Assembly: GCA_040755755.1 (NCBI GenBank)
Contig: JBFLZW010000017.1
Coordinates: forward strand, 45,177 to 109,176
Source of the DNA: a bacterium
Lineage (GTDB): Bacteria > SZUA-182 > DTGQ01
Direction: 5' to 3'
DNA: 64,000 nt
Part shown: piece after piece, positions 3,357 to 45,983 of the stretch
Numbering within the stretch: the first letter of the stretch is position 1
Layout of the letters: each line of letters starts with the position of its first letter
Translations under genes and position numbers: made by a program
Notes under the pieces: model-generated
Seen by the model: only the letters and a program-made list of their open reading frames with translations
What the model was told of the DNA's origin: nothing
The model's database searches: none

Positions 3357-3938
3357 TCACAAGAGGAGAGCGGTGGCAGTCAGCAGGGAGGTTATTGATG
3401 GCTGAGGGAGCAGTGTAGCAGTCGAGGGAGCCGCTGCTGAATAGCTGGGATAAGCAACAAGGTACGACCAGTTGGCTGCGGCGACATTATTGAAAAGCCA
3501 CCAGGCCGGAGTCGGAAGCAGAGAAGAGTAACCGGCTGGCAAGGTAATGTTAATAGGAAGCCCGGTGATTACATTGGTCAATATCGGTGGCGGCCAGAGG
3601 TCGATACCGCCAATTGGGTCGTAATAGGCCAGACCCAGAGGAGTATTATACAACAGCCAGGGATTCCTCATGCTGGGGTGCCAGGTGAGGCCAGGCTGCA
3701 CGGGTAATACCGTCCTTGAAGTAATGCTGGTGACCAGAGGGGCAGGGAGCCCGGTAGCAGAATCGACTGGCGAGAGCGCCGGAGACCACAACGGCCACAG
3801 GGTATTATAGGGGGGTAAAGCCGTCCAGTTTTGTGCCTCGGTCATTGGTATTCTGAACAGGGGATAAATAATGATCCCGATGAGGAAAAAAACTGATAAA
3901 AGCAGCGCCTTTCTTTTACTGCCTCGCATGGTATTCAT
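3357..3938 (-). CDS. Exported Pro/Trp/Tyr-rich protein, Pro-rich family outlier
   Basis: 193 residues. AAGGAGAG sits eight bases before the ATG. A basic N-terminus (MRGSKRK) and hydrophobic stretch to about residue 35 (ending TEAQ) form a signal peptide. The mature part is low in charge and rich in Pro, Leu, Trp, Tyr and Ala (LPPYNTLWPLWSPALSP), and ends in a hydrophobic run (SITSLLTATALLL). Composition, size and design match the exported family at 34.7 and 38.6-43.4 kb, but it lacks their ATIIL or GTW motifs. No known domain recognised. Likely an envelope or extracellular structural protein, by inference only. Confidence 0.8.
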   Translation of the reverse strand: MNTMRGSKRKALLLSVFFLIGIIIYPLFRIPMTEAQNWTALPPYNTLWPLWSPALSPVDSATGLPAPLVTSITSRTVLPVQPGLTWHPSMRNPWLLYNTPLGLAYYDPIGGIDLWPPPILTNVITGLPINITLPAGYSSLLPTPAWWLFNNVAAANWSYLVAYPSYSAAAPSTATLLPQPSITSLLTATALLL

Positions 3939-34687: not shown

Positions 34688-35227
34688 TTAAATAAATGGC
34701 AGCAAGACACTTAACCCTGGAATAGTTGCAGTTGCGGCTGGAAGAGTAGGCACAATGGCAGTTGTGGATATCGTTTGGGTCTGAGTCCAGGGAGGGCCGG
34801 TCGGAACCGACAAAAGTGCAGGCAGAAGCGTGGCAATAGCAGTAGGAGTTGTAGTCGGAGCAGGGACCACCGCCGTTGGTACTGTTGGTACTACCGGAAC
34901 CGCTGTGGCGATAGGCACGGCGCTCACATTAACCACTGACAGAGCAGGATTAAAGATGATGGTAATCGTCGCCGCTGCATTTCTCACCGGCTGCGGGATA
35001 CCCATTGGAGCAAGGAGAGGCCGCGGGGCAGCAGTGAGCAGAGGCGGCATCCCTAACGGCAGGGTTGCAAAAGGTGCAGGTGCATACAGGGGACTAATCG
35101 GCGGAACGTAGAAAAAAGGAGCCCGAGACCCAAGAGCCCCTGGATATGCCAGCATTTGAGCCGATCCGGGACTAAACGAGAATGCTACGATTATTGCTAT
35201 GAAGAGTAATGAGACCCACTTTCTCAT
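34688..35227 (-). CDS. Exported Pro/Ala/Thr-rich protein, Pro-rich family
   Basis: 179 residues, AAAGGAGG before the ATG. Signal peptide ends PGSAQ. The first mature segment is Pro/Tyr/Ala-rich (FFYVPPISPLYAPAPF). Then PVRNAAATITIIFNPALSVVNVSA matches the R-x-AxATIII motif of the 40.9-43.4 kb paralogues, followed by a Thr/Pro/Val/Ala repeat and a hydrophobic end (GLSVLLPFI). Separated from the main cluster by the phosphatase-TPR gene. Function unknown; predicted extracellular or envelope-bound. Confidence 0.82.
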   Translation of the reverse strand: MRKWVSLLFIAIIVAFSFSPGSAQMLAYPGALGSRAPFFYVPPISPLYAPAPFATLPLGMPPLLTAAPRPLLAPMGIPQPVRNAAATITIIFNPALSVVNVSAVPIATAVPVVPTVPTAVVPAPTTTPTAIATLLPALLSVPTGPPWTQTQTISTTAIVPTLPAATATIPGLSVLLPFI

Positions 35228-35423: not shown

Positions 35424-38400
35424 TTAGTAACTCTCCTGCTGTCTGGCTGTCTCCATGAGCATTCGTGCCTGGGTGTTGTCCGGCTCAAGTCGAAGGACTT
35501 CTTCCAGTTCTTCCAGGGATTCCCGGTAGTTTCTCCGATACATGAGGGCCAGAGCCAGGTTATAATGAATTTTCGGATCCTCCGGAGCGACGTCCTCCGC
35601 CTTTCGCCATACTTCTACGGCCTTTTCAAAGTCTCCTTTCCGATAAAAGGCGGTGCCAAGGTTGATCAGTGCTTCCGTATGCGAAGGTGCCCGGTCAAGG
35701 ATTTTCTGCCATGACCGAATCGCCTCTTCGATATTGTTCTGCTTAAGATAGGCTGTTCCCAGGTGGAGACAGGCGTCATTCGAATCAGGATCAATTTCAA
35801 GCGCTTTCTTCCAGAGCATAATGGCCTCCGGATATCTCTCGGCCTGAAAGCTGACAGCGGCCAGGTTCATCAGCGGAACAGGGTCGGAAGGATCAAGACG
35901 GCGGGCTTCCTCCCATTCCACTACCGCCTCCTGGGCCCTGCCGAGCTCATCAAATAGAACATGTCCCATGATCAGATGCGCCTCCTTGTTATGGGGATCG
36001 ACTTCCACCGCTTTTTTCAAAGCGGCAAGCGATTTGTCAAAGGAGCGCAGACTCAGGTAGGTTTTCCCGATCGAGATGTAAACATCCGCTCTGGCCGGGC
36101 CTGTCTTGAGAGCGGTTTCAAAGTGATCAATCGCACCCTGATAGTCCTTGCGGGTGAAATGGGTCAGCCCCAGGCAATTCCAGGCATCCTGGTTGTTCGG
36201 AAAAAGCCTGGTAGCCTGGAGGTAGATATCCTGAGCCTTTTCGAGGTTACCTTCCTTGAACCATGCGGTTCCCAGATTAACCAGGGCTTCTGAATAGCCC
36301 GGCTTTATCTTCATGGCTTTCTGAAAGGCGTCTTTGGCTTTGTCATACGATCCCTGTGCCAGAAAAAGACTGCCAAGGTTATTATGGGCCTCGGCACTGT
36401 TTGGATCTATGGCCGCAGCCTGAGAAAACTCCCGAAGAGCATCTTCCATCTTCGAGCGGTGAAAATAAATCACTCCCAGATTATTGTGTGCTTCCAGGTG
36501 GTTTGGTTCAAGCTTCAGGACCTGGGTGAAGTATTGATATGCCTCTTCCAGATATTTATTCGCTTCTTCCAGCCTTCCCCTCTCAAGGGCCATTTCACCC
36601 AGCAGGTTTATGGCATCGCCATAATCCGGATCAAGCTCGATGGCAGATTTGGCCGCTGAAATGGCCTCATCTTTTAATCCCATCTCCTTATAGACCACAC
36701 CCAGGTTATAATACACATCTGCATACTTGGCTTCCTCCAGGGCCAGTTTAAACTCCTTGAGCGCCTGATCAAGCTGGCCAAGCTGATGGTAAACGATGCC
36801 AAGGTGGTTACGGGCCTCCAGATAGCCTGGCTGCAAGGCCAAAAGATGGAGGAATCTGTCCCGTGCCTGTTCATATTTACCCATTCTTTCCTCTACACAG
36901 GCAAGGTAAAAGGTGGCCGAGACATTTTCCGGGTTCGCATCGATTACTTTTTTAAATTCATTGTAGGCCAGTTCATAAGAGTCAAGATAATAATAGGAAA
37001 GTCCCCGGTCTATTCCGTCGATCAATTGGATCATATCTTTGGGATCGGGCCGTTTTTGAGAGTCTTGTGCCGGATCTTTTTTTGTGGACCGAAAGTAGCC
37101 CAATCCTTCAAGCCGGCGCAGGGCAGCATCGTTCTGGACGATCTGGGGCTGTCTTTTTTCCTTCCGGAGCTGTTCCTTGAGTGCTCCAAGCTTTTTTTCC
37201 CAGTCAATGGCAAGCTCAGGCTCTCCGGTCAGGAGATTGGAATTTTCTGCCGGATCTTTCAGCAGATGGTACAGTTCAGAGCGGGGAGCCTTGATATATT
37301 TCCAGTCCCCTGTTCTTATCCCTTCGATCCGGCTCCAGCCAAAATTAAGCTCCGGATACAATGTTTCACAGAATACTTCCTGATGAAGGGCCTGACACCC
37401 TCCCGATACCAGGGGAAGCAGGCTTTTTCCCGGTAAACCGCTCAAGGAGACTCCGTCAGGCTGGATTGAAAAAAGATCCATGATGGTCGGGAAGATGTCC
37501 AGGGTAGTAACCATCTGAGGTACTTTCTTTATCATTTTTTTTGCTGCCGGCATAAGCCCGGCGGGAGCCTTGATGATCAGGGGGACCCGAAGAGTTGCAT
37601 CGTAGATAAAAATCGTGTGGGTAGATTCACCGTGCTCACCCAGCCCTTCCCCATGATCCGCGGTCAAAACGACGACCGTCTTATCGGTCGCTCCCATTCT
37701 CTTGAGGCCGTCGAGCAAATCACCCAGACACTTGTCCGTATAGGCAATTTCTCCATCGTAGAGACGGTGCTTATAATTTTCCCTGAATGGAGGGGGCGGA
37801 AAATAAATCGCATGCGGGTCGAAGTAGTGAACCCAGAGGAAAAAGGGCTGGCTATGATTTTTCTCCAGCCACTCCAGGGCTGATTTGGTTACCTCCTCTG
37901 CTCTGCGCTCACTATCCATTGGGCTGGCCGATGACCTCTTCTTGCCCGGAAGAGAATCATTATAGGTGTCAAAGCCTTGATCCAGGCCGAACATGGAGTT
38001 CAGCACAAATGCTCCGACGCAGGCCCCGGTACGGTATCCATTTGATTTCATGACTTCAGCCAAAGTGACGACATCCTGCTGCAGAACAAAATTTCCATTG
38101 TTCCAGATACCATGCTGAACTGGATAGAGCCCGGTCATGATCGAAACATGGGACGGCAGAGTGATGGGAACAGGAGTAAGAGCCTGGGTAAAGAGAATGC
38201 CCTCCGATGCCAGAGAATCGATCGCCGGTGTATTCACATCCTGATAGCCGTAACAGCCCAGGTGGTCTGCCCGCAGGGTATCGATGGTGATGAGAAGAAG
38301 ATTATAGGCCGGTTTTCCCGGTTGAGGGGCTGCAGCCTCGCTCAAAGAAACGGGGCTGAGGAAAGAACACAGCAGAAAGAATAGATAAAATATGAATACT

Positions 38401-38432
38401 GGTTTTTTCATGGAGATCGTTCGCTTTTCCAT
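35424..38432 (-). CDS. Secreted alkaline-phosphatase-superfamily / TPR protein
   Basis: 1002 residues from ATG 38432; GTG 38447 and ATG 38411 are alternatives. Signal peptide about 8-32. Residues about 40-430 form a sulfatase-like domain with metal sites LLITIDTLRADHLGCYG, DPH and LTADHGEGLGEHGE. The nucleophile position in PITLPSHVSIMTG is Thr, not the Cys/Ser of CxPSR, and the Arg is His, so a formylglycine sulfatase is unlikely; phosphohydrolase or phospho-transfer chemistry is likelier. Residues about 465-1000 hold about fifteen TPR units. It closes the run of minus-strand Pro-rich genes and may handle or scaffold their products (inference). Confidence 0.88.
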   Translation of the reverse strand: MEKRTISMKKPVFIFYLFFLLCSFLSPVSLSEAAAPQPGKPAYNLLLITIDTLRADHLGCYGYQDVNTPAIDSLASEGILFTQALTPVPITLPSHVSIMTGLYPVQHGIWNNGNFVLQQDVVTLAEVMKSNGYRTGACVGAFVLNSMFGLDQGFDTYNDSLPGKKRSSASPMDSERRAEEVTKSALEWLEKNHSQPFFLWVHYFDPHAIYFPPPPFRENYKHRLYDGEIAYTDKCLGDLLDGLKRMGATDKTVVVLTADHGEGLGEHGESTHTIFIYDATLRVPLIIKAPAGLMPAAKKMIKKVPQMVTTLDIFPTIMDLFSIQPDGVSLSGLPGKSLLPLVSGGCQALHQEVFCETLYPELNFGWSRIEGIRTGDWKYIKAPRSELYHLLKDPAENSNLLTGEPELAIDWEKKLGALKEQLRKEKRQPQIVQNDAALRRLEGLGYFRSTKKDPAQDSQKRPDPKDMIQLIDGIDRGLSYYYLDSYELAYNEFKKVIDANPENVSATFYLACVEERMGKYEQARDRFLHLLALQPGYLEARNHLGIVYHQLGQLDQALKEFKLALEEAKYADVYYNLGVVYKEMGLKDEAISAAKSAIELDPDYGDAINLLGEMALERGRLEEANKYLEEAYQYFTQVLKLEPNHLEAHNNLGVIYFHRSKMEDALREFSQAAAIDPNSAEAHNNLGSLFLAQGSYDKAKDAFQKAMKIKPGYSEALVNLGTAWFKEGNLEKAQDIYLQATRLFPNNQDAWNCLGLTHFTRKDYQGAIDHFETALKTGPARADVYISIGKTYLSLRSFDKSLAALKKAVEVDPHNKEAHLIMGHVLFDELGRAQEAVVEWEEARRLDPSDPVPLMNLAAVSFQAERYPEAIMLWKKALEIDPDSNDACLHLGTAYLKQNNIEEAIRSWQKILDRAPSHTEALINLGTAFYRKGDFEKAVEVWRKAEDVAPEDPKIHYNLALALMYRRNYRESLEELEEVLRLEPDNTQARMLMETARQQESY

Positions 38433-38474
38433 AGTCTTAAAGGACACCTTTTATTTTCTCACCCTGCCCGGTTG

Positions 38475-38579: not shown

Positions 38580-39317
38580 TTACAGAAGCACCAAACTAAA
38601 TACTCCCTCATCCAGTACCGGGATATTGGTACCGGTTACTGTATAATAGCCTGTCAGGGTAGTCGGGGAGGTAAGAACGCCATTTATGAGAAGGTCATAT
38701 CCAGTACCCAGAAATCCGCTTAAGGTAATGACGCTGTTGGCTTCTACCCCACTCACATTCACCAGAAAGTTCGCATACTTGCTCCCCGTGAGAATACAGG
38801 TGCCAACCGCGGTTCCCGTAAGTGGATCTACGGCTATATTCAGGGTCATCGGACCAGTGTGCCACAGGACAATATAGGCAATGTAAGTACTGGTCCACGT
38901 ACCCGTCCAGGTCCCTGTCTGGGCGGCTCTGCGCATGGGCAGGCCGGCAGATGAAGAAAGAGCGGGAGCAAGCGAGCTTGCTGCTGGAATTATGGAGGTC
39001 AAATACGGCACCTGGATTACCGGCCACGGGGAAACAGCCGATAGTGAATTCAAAGGCAAAAGGAAATTGAGAGGGTCGTAAAGTACAGGAAAGCTCAAAG
39101 GATCGAAACTGAAAAAGGAAGAACCTTCAGCAAAAGGAGTATACGGCAGGGGAGGAAGGAGAGCAGGAATCATTTGAGTAAAGGCATCCGACCTCAATCC
39201 GGTTAAGGGAGACAGGGTAACGCCGGAAAGCTGGGCATCGCCGGAAGATACACAGACCATCAGGGCGCAGACAAGAATAACGACAGATAATATGATGCAC
39301 CTTTTTCCTCTGATCAT
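38580..39317 (-). CDS. Exported Pro-rich protein with C-terminal GTW-x-GTWTST domain (paralogue A1)
   Basis: 245 residues; AAGGAT lies nine bases before the ATG. Signal peptide ends GDAQ. Residues 30-130 are a Pro/Leu/Phe/Ser-rich low-charge linker. Residues about 130-245 are a beta-rich domain that starts RRAAQTGTWTGTWTST and runs through YIVLWHTGPMTLNIAVDP, LTSPTTLTGYYTV and DEGVFSLVLL. The domain is nearly collinear in the two upstream neighbours. The pattern recalls calycin or lipocalin-type barrels, but I cannot assign it. 42 bp after the next paralogue; likely one operon. Confidence 0.85.
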   Translation of the reverse strand: MIRGKRCIILSVVILVCALMVCVSSGDAQLSGVTLSPLTGLRSDAFTQMIPALLPPLPYTPFAEGSSFFSFDPLSFPVLYDPLNFLLPLNSLSAVSPWPVIQVPYLTSIIPAASSLAPALSSSAGLPMRRAAQTGTWTGTWTSTYIAYIVLWHTGPMTLNIAVDPLTGTAVGTCILTGSKYANFLVNVSGVEANSVITLSGFLGTGYDLLINGVLTSPTTLTGYYTVTGTNIPVLDEGVFSLVLL

Positions 39318-39358
39318 AGCTGAATATCCTTAAACTTTGATGGAGTACATTAAGTGAC

Positions 39359-39910
39359 CTATAGTAAAACCGGAGACAGCAATGACAAATTGAATACTCC
39401 TTCATCCAGTACCGGGATATGGGTGCCTTCTACTACATAAAAGCCAGTCATCGTAGTCGGTGAGGTAAGAAGACAGGTCAAAACCATATTGTATCCGGTA
39501 GACAGAAGTCCGCTGACCGAAATAATGTCATTTACTTTCACCCCACTCACGTCAAAAGGAATATTTGCATACCGGCTCCCCGGGAGAACACAGGTACCGA
39601 CAACGGTTCCGAGCAATGGATCAACAACGATATTCAAAGTCATTGGCCCTGTATTCCAGAGGACGATAAAGGCGATATAGGTACTGGTCCAGGTGCCTAC
39701 CCATGTCCCTGACTGAGCAGCCGTACGGGTTGGAGCAGTCGCCACAGGTACTGGTGGAATAACAGGATAGCTGAAGGGAGCATACAGCAGAGCGGCAAAG
39801 GGGTCAAAAACGGGATAAACGGGATATTGAGCTTCACACAGAGGCAAACACATTATTGAGAAACAGGTAAAGATCAAAACAGATAACAAATACTTTTTCC
39901 CTCTAATCAT
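39359..39910 (-). CDS. Exported Pro-rich protein with GTW-x-GTWTST domain (paralogue A2)
   Basis: 183 residues from ATG 39910 (MIRGKKYLL), which matches the paralogue starts and has AAGGATG upstream; a longer frame to 39952 is less likely. Signal peptide ends CEAQ. A short YPVYPVFDPFAALLYAPF linker, then the domain RTAAQSGTWVGTWTST ... LLTSPTTMTGFYVV ... IPVLDEGVFNLSLLSPVLL. It is the shortest of the three because the linker is reduced. Confidence 0.85.
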   Translation of the reverse strand: MIRGKKYLLSVLIFTCFSIMCLPLCEAQYPVYPVFDPFAALLYAPFSYPVIPPVPVATAPTRTAAQSGTWVGTWTSTYIAFIVLWNTGPMTLNIVVDPLLGTVVGTCVLPGSRYANIPFDVSGVKVNDIISVSGLLSTGYNMVLTCLLTSPTTMTGFYVVEGTHIPVLDEGVFNLSLLSPVLL

Positions 39911-39979
39911 AATTGGATCATCCTTAAACGTTAAAAAATTCATGCTTCTCATAACCTGCCGGCTAACTATATGGCACAG

Positions 39980-40690
39980 CTATATAAGAACCGGAGCAAG
40001 CAGGCTGAGATCGAATATTCCCTCATCCACAAGATCGCCGGCAGCGGTTACCGCATAAAAACCGTTCATGGTGGTCGGTGAGGTGAGAACACAGGTTACA
40101 TCAATAAGAAATCCCAGCTTTGGAATCCCTTCCAGACTGATGATGTTATTCACCCTTACCCCGCTTACATCAAACGGAATATTGGTATATCTGCTTCCTG
40201 CGAGAAGAGCGGTACCGTAAACGGTTCCTAACAATGGATCTACAACAATATTCAAGGTCATTGGACCGGAGTGCCAGAGAACGATATAGGCAATCCAGGT
40301 ACTCGTCCAGGTGCCTACCCAGGTTCCTGTCTGGGCTGCTGTACGCGTCGGAGTAACAGCCGTAGTTGCAGGCAATATTGCCGGGGCAGGGAGTGGAGCA
40401 AACGGCAGCGTGGGGAGAGCCGGGTAGTAACTTGCACTGAGCAGAGGATCAAAAGGAGCGTAGAGCAGTGAGGCAAAAGGATCAAAAACAGGATAATAAC
40501 TGGCCGCTGTCCGGTATAATCCGGGAGAAAAAACATATGGATTAAAGAATCCCCCGTATCCAACGGCTGTACTGAGGGGAGGCAAAGTAGTGCCGGTATA
40601 CTGCGCATTACTCAAAGGTACACAAACCACAGACAGGGAAATTATAATCATAAAGACGGCTAGCACAATACCTCTTTTACCTTTGACCAT
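39980..40690 (-). CDS. Exported Pro-rich protein with GTW-x-GTWTST domain (paralogue A3)
   Basis: 236 residues, AAAGGAGG six bases before the ATG. Signal peptide ends SNAQ. The linker repeats YPVFDPFASLLYAPF, almost identical to A2. The domain reads RTAAQTGTWVGTWTST ... YIVLWHSGPMTLNIVVDPLLGTV ... VLTSPTTMNGFYAV ... DEGIFDLSLLAPVLI. First of the A group; a 17-bp hairpin separates it from the B group upstream. Confidence 0.85.
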   Translation of the reverse strand: MVKGKRGIVLAVFMIIISLSVVCVPLSNAQYTGTTLPPLSTAVGYGGFFNPYVFSPGLYRTAASYYPVFDPFASLLYAPFDPLLSASYYPALPTLPFAPLPAPAILPATTAVTPTRTAAQTGTWVGTWTSTWIAYIVLWHSGPMTLNIVVDPLLGTVYGTALLAGSRYTNIPFDVSGVRVNNIISLEGIPKLGFLIDVTCVLTSPTTMNGFYAVTAAGDLVDEGIFDLSLLAPVLI

Positions 40691-40800
40691 GATAAACCTC
40701 CTTTCTTACCAGGTATCTCTATACTCTCTCAAGAGCTCTTTTCATCAAATCTCTCATCTCTCTCAAAAACCCGTTCTGCCAAGCTAATTATGCATTGCGA

Positions 40801-40838
40801 AATTCCTCAAGATTCACCACAGTGAATCTTGAGGAATT
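40801..40838 (-). terminator. Perfect 17-bp hairpin between B-group and A-group genes
   Basis: AATTCCTCAAGATTCAC, loop of four, exact reverse complement to 40838, 16 bp past the stop of the 40.9 kb gene. Only a weak T-run (TTTCGC) follows on the minus strand. Likely a terminator or read-through attenuator that divides the cluster. Confidence 0.6.
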
Positions 40839-40853
40839 CAAGACACCTCCTGA

Positions 40854-41300
40854 TCAGATAAACAGATTCGATAATACCGCAAAAAGAAGCGGATTGGCTG
40901 TACTTAAAGCTGCCGGTGAATAAAGTGCCTGCGCATAGAGTGAGACAAGGCCTGAAACAATTGGACTTACTGAGGCAGTAGTTGTAGCCGCGGGTGGAGC
41001 TACCGTAGTAACGGAAACTACACCTGTTGTCGGATTGGTAATAATAATAGTAGCCGCAGGTGCCCTGGTTACCGGGATCGGCAGAGAGGCTGCCAGAACT
41101 GGATCAATATAGGGAGGAACGAATAAAGGTGGAGGAACGGGAGCATAGACCGGTGGAACCGGGGAAAAATATGGATAGGGGTAGAAAACAGGTACCTGGG
41201 ACATACATTTTGAGGAAAGAGAAAGAATACAAATAAAACAGAGACTAGCGATAGCTAATCTTAAAAGTAATTTAAGGCCTCTTACTTCTTGTTGTGACAT
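40854..41300 (-). CDS. Exported Pro/Tyr/Thr-rich protein (paralogue B1)
   Basis: 148 residues; GAGAGGG eight bases upstream. Signal peptide ends CMSQ. Mature N-part VFYPYPYFSPVPPVYAPVPP, then the motif TRAPAATIIITNPTTGVVSV, a Thr/Ala/Pro stretch and the ending ALSTANPLLFAVLSNLFI. The same ending (ANPLLFAYLSSL) occurs in B2 and B3. Nearly no charged residues in the mature protein. Unknown function; probably a self-assembling or membrane-associated structural protein. Confidence 0.82.
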   Translation of the reverse strand: MSQQEVRGLKLLLRLAIASLCFICILSLSSKCMSQVPVFYPYPYFSPVPPVYAPVPPPLFVPPYIDPVLAASLPIPVTRAPAATIIITNPTTGVVSVTTVAPPAATTTASVSPIVSGLVSLYAQALYSPAALSTANPLLFAVLSNLFI

Positions 41301-41316
41301 TGCTTAAACCCTCTCT

Positions 41317-41805
41317 CTAAATAAACAGCGATGATAAGTAGGCAAAAAGCAGCGGATTAGCGGTAGAAAGGGGAGCCGGTGCGTAGAGTGCGCCCGAATA
41401 AAGTACAGCCAGAATACTAAATAACGGTGAAGGAGCTGCCGTAGTAACTGTAGGTGTGGTAGTAGAAACAATTGTTGGTGCTGTAGTTGGAGTAACTACC
41501 GTTGGTGCTCCAATGACCACCGCCCCTGCCGTGGGACTTACCGCCGTGATTCCAGTGGAGAGAATAATCGTAGCCTGAGGTGCCCGTATATACGGCACCG
41601 GCGCGATCGGTACAGGAGGAAGCAGCGGATAGGGACTGTAACTCACGGGAGCAAATGGCGTAACTGGAAGAAATGGATCAAAATACGGGTTATAATATTG
41701 CCCCAGACCTTCCTGAAGAGCGATTCCCAAGATAAATATGCACACCAAGAAAAAGACTGCAAGCGATTTCTGAGCAAGGCTCATACAATAACCCTTCTTC
41801 TGCAT
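41317..41805 (-). CDS. Exported Pro/Tyr/Thr-rich protein (paralogue B2)
   Basis: 162 residues; AAGGAG nine bases upstream. Signal peptide ends EGLGQ. YYNPYFDPFLPVTPFAPV linker, then IRAPQATIILSTGITAVSP, a VVTPTTAPTIVSTTTPTV repeat, and the ending PLSTANPLLFAYLSSLFI. B2 and B3 share nearly identical central segments, which points to recent duplication. 17 bp upstream of B1. Confidence 0.83.
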   Translation of the reverse strand: MQKKGYCMSLAQKSLAVFFLVCIFILGIALQEGLGQYYNPYFDPFLPVTPFAPVSYSPYPLLPPVPIAPVPYIRAPQATIILSTGITAVSPTAGAVVIGAPTVVTPTTAPTIVSTTTPTVTTAAPSPLFSILAVLYSGALYAPAPLSTANPLLFAYLSSLFI

Positions 41806-41861
41806 AAACTTGATCTCCTTAGATTACGCACTTAGCAGGAATATAAGCTCTCTTTTGTCTG

Positions 41862-42347
41862 CTAAATGGTGAGCGATGATAAATAAGCAAAAAGCAGTGG
41901 GTTAGCCACAGAAAGAGGGCTTTCATAGAGAGCGCTTGCGTATAATATGCCCAGGATACTGATTAAAGGTGCAGGCGCTGCTGTGGTAACTGTCGGGACA
42001 GCAGTACTGACAACTGTCGGTACTGTAGTCGGCGTAACTACTGTCGGTGCACCAATGACCAGAGTTCCGGTAGTCGGACTTACCGCCGTAATTCCGGTTG
42101 AAAGGATAATGGTGGCATGAGGTGCTCTCATACCGGGCAGCGTTGGATATGGCACAGGGCAAAACTGGATCGAGGGGAAGAGAAGCGGTGGCGGCGGCGG
42201 AAGAAAAGGAGCATAGGTCAAGGGCATATAAGGAAGATATTGACAGGACCCCTTCTGAAGGCTGACTGCTAAGGTAAGAACACAAGATAACATAACAATT
42301 AGGAAAGATTTTCCAATGATACTCATAAAACAGCTCTTGTTGCGCAT
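41862..42347 (-). CDS. Exported Pro/Tyr/Thr-rich protein (paralogue B3)
   Basis: 161 residues from ATG 42347 (MRNKSCFMS), chosen for AGAGGAG nine bases upstream; an in-frame ATG at 42398 is unsupported. Signal peptide ends GSCQ. Linker YLPYMPLTYAPFLPPPPP, then MRAPHATIILSTGITAVSP, VVTPTTVPTVVSTAVPTV and SVANPLLFAYLSSLTI. Confidence 0.82.
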   Translation of the reverse strand: MRNKSCFMSIIGKSFLIVMLSCVLTLAVSLQKGSCQYLPYMPLTYAPFLPPPPPLLFPSIQFCPVPYPTLPGMRAPHATIILSTGITAVSPTTGTLVIGAPTVVTPTTVPTVVSTAVPTVTTAAPAPLISILGILYASALYESPLSVANPLLFAYLSSLTI

Positions 42348-42506
42348 AAATCTGTACTCCTCTACTTTTCGGAAAGTTATCTGAAGTGATACTTTCATTC
42401 AAACGTTTTCCAGCATCGGCAGTGTCCCTGTACTAATTTTGGACGACTAATGACCTGTCCCCAATTGTAGAGGGACACCACCTCAATTCTTCAGCCGATA
42501 CCGAAC

Positions 42507-42863
42507 TTATTCCGCAAGCGACAGGAACAGTATCAAAAATACCAGGGTGCTTGGTGTAAGAGACAATGTGCCAAGTGGTGCAGCCGCGGTGACGACCGGA
42601 GTTGTGGGAGCCAGAATAATAGTTGCCGCTGCAGTCCTGCTTGCTGCAGTTGGCAGTGCCAGGTATGGATCGAACAGCGGAGGAGCAAATACCGGAGCAG
42701 CCGGGAAATAAGGCACGGGAGGTACAAAGGCAAAGTATGGATCATAATACGGAGCAGGATAGGGAATAAATTGAGCGGAAACCTGTGTTGAAGTTAAAAA
42801 AATGACTGTTATGAGAAATATAATAAGGCAACTCATAAACCTTACTAAGCTAAACTGCTTCAT
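42507..42863 (-). CDS. Exported Pro/Tyr/Ala-rich protein (paralogue B4)
   Basis: 118 residues; AAGGAG before the ATG. Signal peptide ends QVSAQ, shared with B5. Linker FIPYPAPYYDPYFAFVPPV, then SRTAAATIILAPTTPVVTAA and the ending LTPSTLVFLILFLSLAE, a hydrophobic C-terminal helix with two acidic end residues or one (AE). Lacks the Thr-rich segment of B1-B3. Confidence 0.82.
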   Translation of the reverse strand: MKQFSLVRFMSCLIIFLITVIFLTSTQVSAQFIPYPAPYYDPYFAFVPPVPYFPAAPVFAPPLFDPYLALPTAASRTAAATIILAPTTPVVTAAAPLGTLSLTPSTLVFLILFLSLAE

Positions 42864-42983
42864 GTAAAAGATTCTCCTTAATCAAAGATTTTGTTAAAAG
42901 GAATAATCCTTTTATCAAGAGCCTGAGTAGTTACATTAAAAGTTAAACATAAACAGGGTAAAACATACGATACTTTCCATGTC

Positions 42984-43355
42984 CTATTCTTCCAGGGACA
43001 GATAGAGTATTAAAAACACAAGGGTGGTTGGTGTCAGAGCCAGCGTTCCAAGAGGTGCAGCAGCAGTGACTACCGGTGCTGCGGGTGTTAGAATTATCGT
43101 TGCTGCCGCAGCACGGCTGATAGGAGTTGGCAGAGCCGCCAGATATGGATCGAACAGGGGAACTGTAGGATAGAGAAGAGGAGGTGTAGGATACAATGAA
43201 ATCGGAGGCAATGGAAGTGGACTATAACCATAAAACGGGTCATAGTATGGCGATGGAAGAATCTGAGCAGAAACCTGGGTTGAAACAAGTAAAGCAGTAA
43301 CCATGAAGAAAATAATAAGACACGTTACATTTTTTCGTGAGCTAAATTTCCTCAT
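42984..43355 (-). CDS. Exported Pro/Tyr/Ala-rich protein (paralogue B5, first in cluster)
   Basis: 123 residues; AAGGGAG nine bases upstream. Signal peptide ends QVSAQ. Linker ILPSPYYDPFYGYSPLPLPP, then SRAAAATIILTPAAPVVTAA and LTPTTLVFLILYLSLEE. Close pair with B4. First gene after a large gene-free interval, so the cluster promoter should lie just upstream, on the minus strand above 43355. Confidence 0.83.
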   Translation of the reverse strand: MRKFSSRKNVTCLIIFFMVTALLVSTQVSAQILPSPYYDPFYGYSPLPLPPISLYPTPPLLYPTVPLFDPYLAALPTPISRAAAATIILTPAAPVVTAAAPLGTLALTPTTLVFLILYLSLEE

Positions 43356-45182
43356 AGTATGAATCTCCCTTCCAGCTCAAGGTATGTGCCTGCCAAGGAA
43401 TCACATCCAAGTAGGCAAAACTTGAACACTGAAACATACCTTTGATTATTAATGGGACTGGAGCCAGAGGAACGATTATGCTTCCCCTCACTTTTCGTTT
43501 CTCAAGTTCTTCCTACTATGACGGGAAAACATAAGTAATCCAACATCTTGCTAAGAGCAAAGAATGACTTCTCATTCAATCTTTGCTACCTCGGGGAAGC
43601 CATCCCCTGGCACATCTTTTGCAAAAATATGAATTGCATACAAAAAGTTCCAGACTTTCTGTATGTAGCCTTAGGGGTCATCGGTATTGATAAGTTCGCG
43701 CCTTGAAAGTACCGGTGACCTTTTTTTTCGAACTCTTCTCTCAGAAACACCTCCTTGCTGAATGCTTGCCCTGAGATTCTACTATCCAGGAGTTAAATTG
43801 CAGGCAAGACAAGTGGGAAGTAATTTACTTGGATGAATATACATGCCGACCACTAATAAGAAGTATTCCTTAATCAACCTCCTTTCTCTGAAAATCTTTC
43901 CGGGCTGGTTTCTTAACTTCTCACCCCCTTTCGTTATTTTCATAACTGTCCATTTTTGAGCACCAATAAATACCCTAACAATATCACCTCTGTCTCTATC
44001 GTCCCGGGATCTTTCTGAGATCCCGGATAACCTTACAGCAGATGGCTCTGCAAGTTCTCCAGCAACAGGTATCTTACTTAAATCGATACGAGGAGCGAAC
44101 TATCTGTTTTAATTTCCTATTGTCGAGGTATCTGGCAGAAAAAAAATGGAGCACTTGGATAAATATGAAATTGGTCAAGTTTTTTAAAAAGTTAAGAAAT
44201 GTGATCATATCTCGTCACCGCTTAAATGTTAATGGGTACAATAAGAGATCCTCCAAGCCGAAACTATAAAAACCCGCAATGAGAAACCTGGAAATAGTAT
44301 AGAAAAATACCGCTTCAGAGTTTCCCATTCTCTGGTTGAATAGGCTCTTTCGTCACTGAATAACAGTAAATTAACTTAACCTTTTGAATAGCTGGGGTGT
44401 AAAGCTGGGGTATCTGTTATCAACAGATAATTCTCTATATACTACTAAATATACGAGAAATAATGATGGAAATTATCGCTCTCATACCCCGGTAACCTTG
44501 CCAATACCGGGAATTCTTATGCAATATTCCCTCCTTGCCTCTGCCTTTGTAGGAAATGCAAATTCCATGCTCAAGTACAAAAGTTACGGAGAGTCCCGGT
44601 CTTTCCCTGGATAGTTCGTGCTGGTGTAACCTTAACCTATTGATTCAATATGCGTAATTTCCATCATCGAAGTCCGCTATATTTTTATCCTGGAGAGAGA
44701 CTGCTGTCTCAAGTTCAAGCCAAGAACTGGTCCTTATAGTGCAGGTATGTAATTTTATGTACTTTCTTACACAGAGCATTAGATAACCAGAGAAACATTT
44801 ATCGATTAACCATATGTTTATAAATCGAAAACCTTTCCCCTCCCAGCTATGCATATTTTTGCATATATCATTCATCTTATGAATAGTATATGCAAACCGG
44901 GAACATGAGGAGAGCTCAACCTTGAAAGTCCTTGGTGTTTCAATAGAAAATCTCCCAGTAAGGGGAATGCCCTGATTCATAGAACCTATGATCCTTCAGA
45001 AAAAGTAAGGAGGGACTTTTCAACTGATTGGGAAGGCAGATTCTGCCAAGCCTGCATAAAGGCGAAGATTCAGGAGGGAGAAATAAGGGAGAAATCAAGA
45101 TGGTATGGGCAAAAAGCGAGGAACTTCCTGCCCATACCAGCGGTAAAACTTTGAGCCGCACAAAATCTTTTCACTAATACCG
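43356..45182. other. 1.8-kb gene-free interval
   Basis: Frames here (for example 44042-44269, 44384-44614 and 44645-44980) lack ribosome sites and coding composition. The interval contains the cluster promoter region and a strong plus-strand terminator (43676-43728). The remainder is AT-rich with no recognised element. Confidence 0.6.
43676..43728 (+). terminator. Strong orphan intrinsic terminator, plus strand
   Basis: GGTCATCGGTA (43676-43686) pairs with TACCGGTGACC (43710-43720, one G-T pair), followed directly by eight T. A textbook rho-independent terminator, yet no plus-strand gene lies upstream for more than 10 kb. It implies a non-coding or antisense transcript that starts in or near the 43.36-43.67 kb leader. 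Confidence 0.8.
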
Positions 45183-45983
45183 CTACTTGTGAGCGCCTTT
45201 TCCCTGCTCAGGGGTATCTTTTTCCGGTACACCGGCTCCGCCGGGTTGGGCGGGACCGCTGCCCTTCTGCTCATCAGGCTGCGGGGATGCTTTCACCGCG
45301 TCCTTTGCCGCCAGATTCTCCCTCTTATACTCCGCCGGAATCTCAAACAGTTTCCTGTCGATTTCCTTTTCCTCCACCTTGACAAGCTTGGTGACCATAT
45401 CGAGTTTCTTGTTCTGGGCATCCATATGAACAGCAATCTCTACCGGATATCCGGGGTATTTGTTCAATTCACCAATGATTTTCTTTTGTCCAAAATAAAC
45501 GGCCATTCTGGACCTTACTTCTGCGGGCATCTTGACCGCATCGCTGAGCCAGTACTCCACATCCGTGGTTACCCCCTTGGTGGTACTGGTCAGGATAACC
45601 TGATAGGCATCCCATTGGCCAATCTTTTTGGTTTTCCCCGTTTTTTTTGAGGATACCTGGATCTCTTTCTCAATGGCCGCAAATTGCGCTTTCAAATCAA
45701 CCTCTTTTGCAATCTTCTCTTTTTCGTTGAGCTGATAGGCCTTGTCCTGGTCCATATAAATGAGCAAGACCGTATTCTTATCGCTTTCATTGAAATACCT
45801 TATCTTGTCCTGTTTTACCCACATCTTCAGCGTGGAAGCAGGGGGGCCCGCTGGTTTGCCATCAATCAGGGTCTCGGTCTGCTTCTCAATGTAATAATCC
45901 CCTGCCCAAAGAGAACCTGCCAGAAAACCGGATATCATGCATCCTGCCATCAGACTCAAGACTAATATCCTCTTCAATTTCAT
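45183..45983 (-). CDS. Exported DUF4412-like protein
   Basis: 266 residues; AAAGGAT six bases upstream. Signal peptide ends SLWAG. The fold pattern (YYIEKQTETLIDGKPAG ... LKMWVKQDKIRY ... LLIYMDQDKAYQLNEKEK ... KKIGQWDAYQVIL ... VEYWLSDAVKM) matches LolA-like periplasmic proteins of the DUF4412 type, which may bind lipid. The C-terminal 40 residues are Pro/Gly/Gln/Lys-rich and disordered. No operon partner. Confidence 0.78.
   Translation of the reverse strand: MKLKRILVLSLMAGCMISGFLAGSLWAGDYYIEKQTETLIDGKPAGPPASTLKMWVKQDKIRYFNESDKNTVLLIYMDQDKAYQLNEKEKIAKEVDLKAQFAAIEKEIQVSSKKTGKTKKIGQWDAYQVILTSTTKGVTTDVEYWLSDAVKMPAEVRSRMAVYFGQKKIIGELNKYPGYPVEIAVHMDAQNKKLDMVTKLVKVEEKEIDRKLFEIPAEYKRENLAAKDAVKASPQPDEQKGSGPAQPGGAGVPEKDTPEQGKGAHK

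Follow-up and report, generated by a model that had tools for sequence, protein, structure and literature searches.

The squid ring teeth proteins, or suckerins, are secreted, almost free of charge and rich in Gly, Tyr and Leu, and their soft segment has been published as STGTLSYGYGGLYGGLYGGLGYG (PMC6393770) and also as YGYGGLYGGLYGGLGY (PMC4555047). To the Gly-Leu-Tyr repeats the sucker teeth owe their softness and elasticity. Literature searches gave no bacterial counterpart of the suckerins, nor anything relevant to the genomes considered here. In the present study, a cluster of eight genes at positions 38580-43355 of a 64 000-nucleotide stretch of contig JBFLZW010000017.1 (the window), from a small uncultured bacterial phylum, was analysed together with its relatives in other genomes. 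The cluster encodes charge-poor secreted proteins, termed A1-A3 and B1-B5, and beside it lies the gene for AP-TPR, an exported enzyme in which an alkaline phosphatase (AP) superfamily domain is joined to TPR repeats. We consider the chances about even that the cluster codes for structural proteins which are exported to form a matrix, sheath or coat outside the cell, one peculiar to a single order. There is good support for export and for the novelty of the families; a structural role and the substrate of the enzyme are what we infer.

Other described systems offer partial parallels. The mycobacterial PE_PGRS proteins have a different N-terminal domain and a different mode of export, other repeat words and no barrel. 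They are likewise bacterial glycine-rich multigene proteins (PMC11939664). Insect cuticle and silk-like structural proteins also form secreted low-complexity multigene families, in which short Tyr motifs are conserved (PMC2932725, PMC4944945), but they are of animal origin and have neither a barrel nor an AP-TPR partner. A low-complexity structural protein is thus a familiar idea, and the fold described below is known already; what is new is the protein families, for which no named relative turned up in the libraries searched.

Composition and families of the cluster

The original prediction, made from the window's sequence, placed eight consecutive minus-strand genes in this interval, and the listing of open reading frames (ORFs) gave the same ORFs at the same coordinates, with gaps of 16-163 bases from 43355 down to 38580. 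They are given below with some ratios of non-synonymous to synonymous change (dN/dS). Genomes are labelled G000 (the window's own), G001 (JAILZY01), G003 (JAUWIR01) and G004 (JAFGSM01).

A1, 38580..39317, minus strand: signal peptide, Pro/Leu/Ser-rich linker, C-terminal barrel domain; profile E value 1e-121
A2, 39359..39952, minus strand: signal peptide, short Pro/Tyr/Phe linker (FDPF, YAPF), barrel domain; A2-A3 dN/dS 0.22; true start perhaps an internal Met, from alignment with relatives
A3, 39980..40690, minus strand: signal peptide, linker, barrel domain at residues 122-230 with eight modelled strands
B1, 40854..41300, minus strand: charge-poor Pro/Tyr protein with a RAPAATIIITNPTTG block and a C-terminal ...STANPLLFAVLSNLFI; dN/dS with the G001 orthologue 0.20
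B2, 41317..41805, minus strand: long B type; model mostly unstructured, with two low-confidence C-terminal helices
B3, 41862..42398, minus strand: long B type; start more likely at 42347, from alignment with relatives
B4, 42507..42863, minus strand: short B type, C-terminal end PLGTLSLTPSTLVFLILFLSLAE; dN/dS with G001 0.15
B5, 42984..43355, minus strand: short B type

The features first ascribed to these proteins were largely confirmed. All eight N-termini are hydrophobic and signal-peptide-like. The predicted signal peptidase I site, called by rule from the sequence and not with SignalP, falls between a small residue and Gln in all eight (Met-Ser/Gln in B1), so that every mature protein would begin with Q. 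Charged residues (D+E+K+R) make up 1.6-7.2% of the mature proteins, in agreement with the description of them as nearly charge-free. Words of the YDPF, FDPF and YAPF type are genuinely enriched: 15 Y/F-D/A-P words were counted against 0.8 expected, with a maximum of 7 among 2000 composition-preserving shuffles. The ATII block is present in B1-B5 (at most one protein per shuffled set) and the RTAAQ/RRAAQ block in A1-A3.

For the tested pairs, orthologues and paralogues alike, dN/dS was 0.15-0.23, synonymous change far exceeding non-synonymous change, and this extends to the low-complexity genes. The cluster genes are therefore real conserved coding genes under purifying selection. Low-complexity composition might have suggested that the ORFs are chance readings or assembly artefacts. 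However, ribosome-binding-site-like sequence precedes most starts, dN/dS values across the families lie at 0.08-0.23, and orthologues and gene order recur in separate assemblies; the likelihood of this explanation is practically nil, and it is ruled out by conservation.

The eight genes had been taken for paralogues of one family, and this did not hold. Profiles of the A and B proteins align solely in the signal peptide, so the eight make up at least two families, tied together by composition and gene order. Repeated duplication, also proposed, is evident within them: A1-A3 are mutually homologous (43-68% identity in pairwise comparison), B2 is closely paired with B3 and B4 with B5, and B1 groups with B2/B3. 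An R-x-x-x-ATII block is common to the long (B1-B3) and short (B4-B5) B types, the conserved C-termini of which differ. Pfam and NCBIfam searches with the eight proteins, at E values up to 1, gave one sub-threshold chance match, in keeping with the claim that no named family is known. The same libraries assigned the other low-charge families to no known family, and a search of the PDB by sequence gave no credible match.

A hydrophobic C-terminus had been attributed to all eight proteins. In the B type the hydrophobic C-terminal segments are short, and conservation is highest in their motifs STANPLLFAYLSSLFI and LTPSTLVFLILFLSL; in A1-A3, by contrast, the AlphaFold2 model places this region in a globular barrel, as its final strands, and not in a tail. 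Such B termini might enter the outer membrane as part of a lipid- or membrane-associated layer whose lipid or glycan head groups are modified by AP-TPR, and the system would then serve envelope remodelling rather than a matrix. The conservation of the two motifs and the two C-terminal helices of the otherwise mostly disordered B2 model would fit, and the AP superfamily includes lipid-modifying phosphotransferases. Those helices, however, are short and poorly modelled, the barrel that closes the A proteins is of a soluble type, and the tail is absent from most genome copies; we regard a membrane layer as improbable.

Two outliers in the window had been grouped with the cluster. They are of the same style, secreted and low in charge, but each belongs to a further family:

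34688-35227, minus strand: low-charge secreted protein with a RNAAATITIIFNPALSVVNVSA block, conserved beside AP-TPR; dN/dS 0.23
3357..3938, minus strand: low-charge secreted protein of the NWxALPPYNxLWPLWSP (WPLWSP) family

The R-x-A-A-A-T-I-x-I-I block of the first resembles that of the B type, and the protein occurs in the same conserved neighbourhood. The family of the second has 33 invariant columns among 11 members, and its profile aligns with that of B solely in the signal peptide. Five tandem genes of this family stand at a second locus on C69. The tandem sets at L071 4019-7169 and L072 4133-7399 show 82-90% identity between species and dN/dS of 0.08-0.09 in the two pairs tested. By these measures it is the most strongly conserved low-charge family.

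The barrel domain and its distribution

The C-terminal domain common to A1-A3 is about 115 residues long and starts RTAAQxGTWxGTW. The AlphaFold2 model of A3, built with 56 sequences, places eight strands within residues 122-230; the predicted local distance difference test (pLDDT) value there is mostly about 95, 112 residues reach 90 or above, and the linker is unstructured. The domain is thus confidently modelled as an eight-strand calycin/avidin-like barrel. The best Foldseek matches were avidins and the C-terminal domain of the neisserial antigen NHBA (E 2e-5 to 7e-5). Like the avidins (wilavidin, shwanavidin, rhizavidin), the modelled barrel has eight strands in about 115 residues and a G-x-W start (E 2e-5; target template modelling (TM) score up to 0.7), but none of 56 members matched the Pfam Avidin family at E 0.01, and the best identity was 19%. 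With NHBA it has a small C-terminal barrel in common (E 7e-5 to 2e-4; target TM up to 0.68), but the sequences are not detectably related; NHBA is a surface lipoprotein rich in Arg, whereas the barrel proteins are charge-poor and multigenic. A viral fold library returned generic small barrels and nothing else. Searches of Pfam and NCBIfam with the 56 members gave no credible match, only chance matches of single members (TamB, IF-6, NhaA).

The profile search of G000 gave 24 matching stretches, and 23 with the domain alone; per-genome counts for G000 rest on searches and sampled stretches. Altogether, 57 distinct barrel domains were gathered from five genomes, a new domain family that is ready for curation regardless of function. 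The five are among nine genomes of the phylum and all belong to one order; the domain was absent from the 381 other genomes searched (4 of the same phylum and 377 others). A scan of 84,980 species matched only HOT.CON.50 (JAILZY01), Zod_Metabat.896 (JAFGSM01, from Zodletone spring) and CSMAG_2299 (JAUWIR01), all among the five positive genomes; it used a narrower profile and short exact patterns, which distant members could escape. Among 40 genomes searched, the B profile matched G000, G001 and G004 only, and the barrel domain is absent from B1-B5.

The proteins might instead be cell-surface adhesins or binding proteins, in which the barrel binds a ligand (a glycan, a mineral or a hydrophobic molecule), the low-complexity region is a flexible stalk and the copies are diversified receptors. 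Avidins and the C-terminal domain of NHBA, a heparin-binding antigen, are its nearest structures, and identity among the barrel sequences falls as low as 21-30% with Gly and Trp positions kept. Against this, no conserved polar pocket was identified in the barrel, very long repeats occur in many members, and B1-B5, the 34688 type and the WPLWSP type share the style and neighbourhood with no barrel match. We think a binding role of this kind unlikely.

Near AP-TPR in both G000 and G001 there are also secreted proteins rich in Tyr and Ser whose divergent C-terminus, GSYQGRW...GTVTF, resembles the barrel (L129 7738-8886 and L136 7937-9109).

Repeats, the AP-TPR enzyme and a proposed assembly

The original prediction drew its set of proteins from the window. 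What lay outside that set, and was missed, is a genome-wide population of barrels, usually fused to GGLYG repeats, and the constant presence of AP-TPR beside clusters like this one. GGLYGGLYG repeats, long in many members, precede the barrel in 42 of 56 proteins, and Pro-rich linkers like those of the window do so in eight. The repeats contain the suckerin words YGGLYGGLYGG exactly and match the published soft segment over up to 14 identical consecutive residues (YGYGGLYGGLYGGL). At the DNA level, copies of the GGLYGGLYG coding motif numbered 98, 115, 12, 2 and 20 in the five barrel genomes and 0 in four other class members; in the 377 other genomes there was a single match, reading GGFYGGFYG. 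Codons differ between copies, and the pattern run backwards gave 0 matches in the positive genomes. The repeat regions contain almost no His.

Several GLYG proteins (L005, L009, L135, L140, L159) share a block like SPFGLQNMYYSIPTGTGLSYQVPFLQIAPLLGIAGLYNSLFPNLF, another undescribed domain, at times with no barrel. One GLYG gene (L129 9398-10249) has a run of N, standing for masked or withheld bases, in its repeat region. In connection with a mobile or viral origin, the GGLYGGLYGG DNA pattern occurs once in each of three viral contigs (L166, L167, L168).

The enzyme gene lies downstream of A1:

AP-TPR, 35424..38447, minus strand: exported alkaline-phosphatase-superfamily ('sulfatase') domain with TPR repeats; signal-like N-terminus

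Conservation of the clustering in relatives, on which the original prediction had been staked, was found: the order B, A, then AP-TPR is kept in G000, G001 (B-short, B-long, B1, A, AP-TPR, 34688-type) and G004 (B-short, B1, A, AP-TPR). A second conserved locus, in G000 (C69) and G001 (C62), comprises B-long, the 34688 type, the five WPLWSP genes and another AP-TPR. Strong AP-TPR copies, counted as tblastn pieces at E 1e-40, numbered 13, 14, 12, 9 and 6 in the five barrel genomes versus 0 in each of the four other class members. Nine other AP-TPR stretches of G000 held 9 low-charge secreted genes per 148 kb versus 4 per 400 kb elsewhere (conditional test, p = 0.0018), the comparison stretches having been hand-picked before inspection and 'low-charge secreted' being a rule of our own.

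AP-TPR matches Pfam Sulfatase (E 7e-52), and all 27 AP-TPR proteins compared carry Asp56, Thr96, Pro98, His100, Asp264, His265 and His277. In alignment with solved sulfatases, Thr96 takes the place of the catalytic Cys/Ser and Asp264-His265 that of the sulfatase DN. The nucleophile site reads T-x-P-x-H (mostly TLPSH) and lacks the Cys/Ser-x-Pro-x-Arg formylglycine motif; AP-TPR is set apart further by its fused TPR repeats. At the sequence level, AP-TPR thus has the Thr nucleophile, Asp and Asp-His metal ligands of the phospho branch of the superfamily, which suggests, from what is generally known of it, that the reaction is of a phospho type and not the cleavage of a sulfate ester.

The proteins are secreted, duplicated, variable and lineage-specific, as a bacteriocin-like repertoire of small secreted antagonists would be. 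No immunity-like partner genes were seen, however, purifying selection acts across the paralogues and the partner is a large enzyme, all of which makes antagonism very improbable.

An assembly of structural proteins can be envisaged as follows. The proteins would be exported by the Sec pathway and cleaved just before Gln, a site consistent in 8/8. Their charge-free Pro/Tyr/Phe or Gly-Leu-Tyr segments may then form flexible, sticky chains that associate via tyrosine and backbone hydrogen bonds, as does the soft segment of squid ring teeth. The predicted A-type barrel could act as a node or anchoring head, and the B type, with short hydrophobic C-terminal segments and no barrel, as filler or co-assembly partner. 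AP-TPR, with its Thr nucleophile and phosphotransferase/phosphodiesterase-like Asp-His metal pair, would act on the same surface material; given the observed linkage, co-distribution and conserved active site, it might add or remove a phospho group on the proteins or an associated glycan.

Put at its strongest, the order would have evolved, independently, a material like that of squid ring teeth. Each genome would encode dozens of barrel-capped secreted proteins of the GLYG and Pro/Tyr kinds, exported AP-TPR enzymes with the Thr nucleophile, co-expanded and dedicated to this task, would process or decorate them, and the outcome would be an extracellular solid for which bacteria offer no described parallel. 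We offer this tentatively, as possible, with the balance leaning against it. If true, an uncultured phylum would have a large undescribed secretome and a bacterial case of repeat words that materials science already engineers from squid. It would also provide genetically simple, bacterially native elastic-protein modules, and the tie between an expanded AP-superfamily enzyme and candidate extracellular substrates would make an untouched enzyme family testable.

A number of observations weigh against a structural, suckerin-like role. The likeness to squid repeats is, on the sequence comparison, convergence of composition and not homology. Unlike suckerins, the proteins are bacterial, with a folded C-terminal barrel and a second, Pro/Tyr/Phe type of linker; A1-A3 themselves have Pro/Tyr linkers and no GLYG repeats, and are not among the 42 proteins with GLY-rich soft segments. 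The crystal-forming Ala/Val/Ser/Thr/His modules of suckerins were not seen in the sequences read. A calycin-type barrel is equally typical of ligand-binding proteins. Some AP-TPR copies have no adjoining low-charge secreted gene, and relatives of the enzyme (E 1e-100) occur in 1-3 copies in seven sampled genomes outside the phylum, in which the barrel domain was not found; the enzyme itself is thus not unique to the system, but its expansion is.

Upstream region

One further element lies upstream of B5:

43597..43756, minus strand: candidate structured leader, conserved in the congeneric genome G001 only

It is 78% identical to L067 2742-2901 over 162 nt and contains two hairpins, GGTCACCGGTA/TACCGATGACC and CATACA/TGTATG. 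The leader had no Rfam match, on which ground a riboswitch reading was rejected, and its pattern was found nowhere else in the class beyond the two known copies. It is regarded as a candidate cis-regulatory RNA.

Two more non-coding blocks upstream of the cluster (44321-44415 and 44751-44884) are 73-81% conserved with G001 and include GATACCCCAGnTTTACACCCCAGC. A DUF4412 protein gene (45183-45983) has the same upstream position in G001 (L067 223-1005; approximately 75% identity) and is followed by a strong terminator-like hairpin at 45139-45101. The protein encoded at 46569-48131 matches DUF3843 (E 2e-12).

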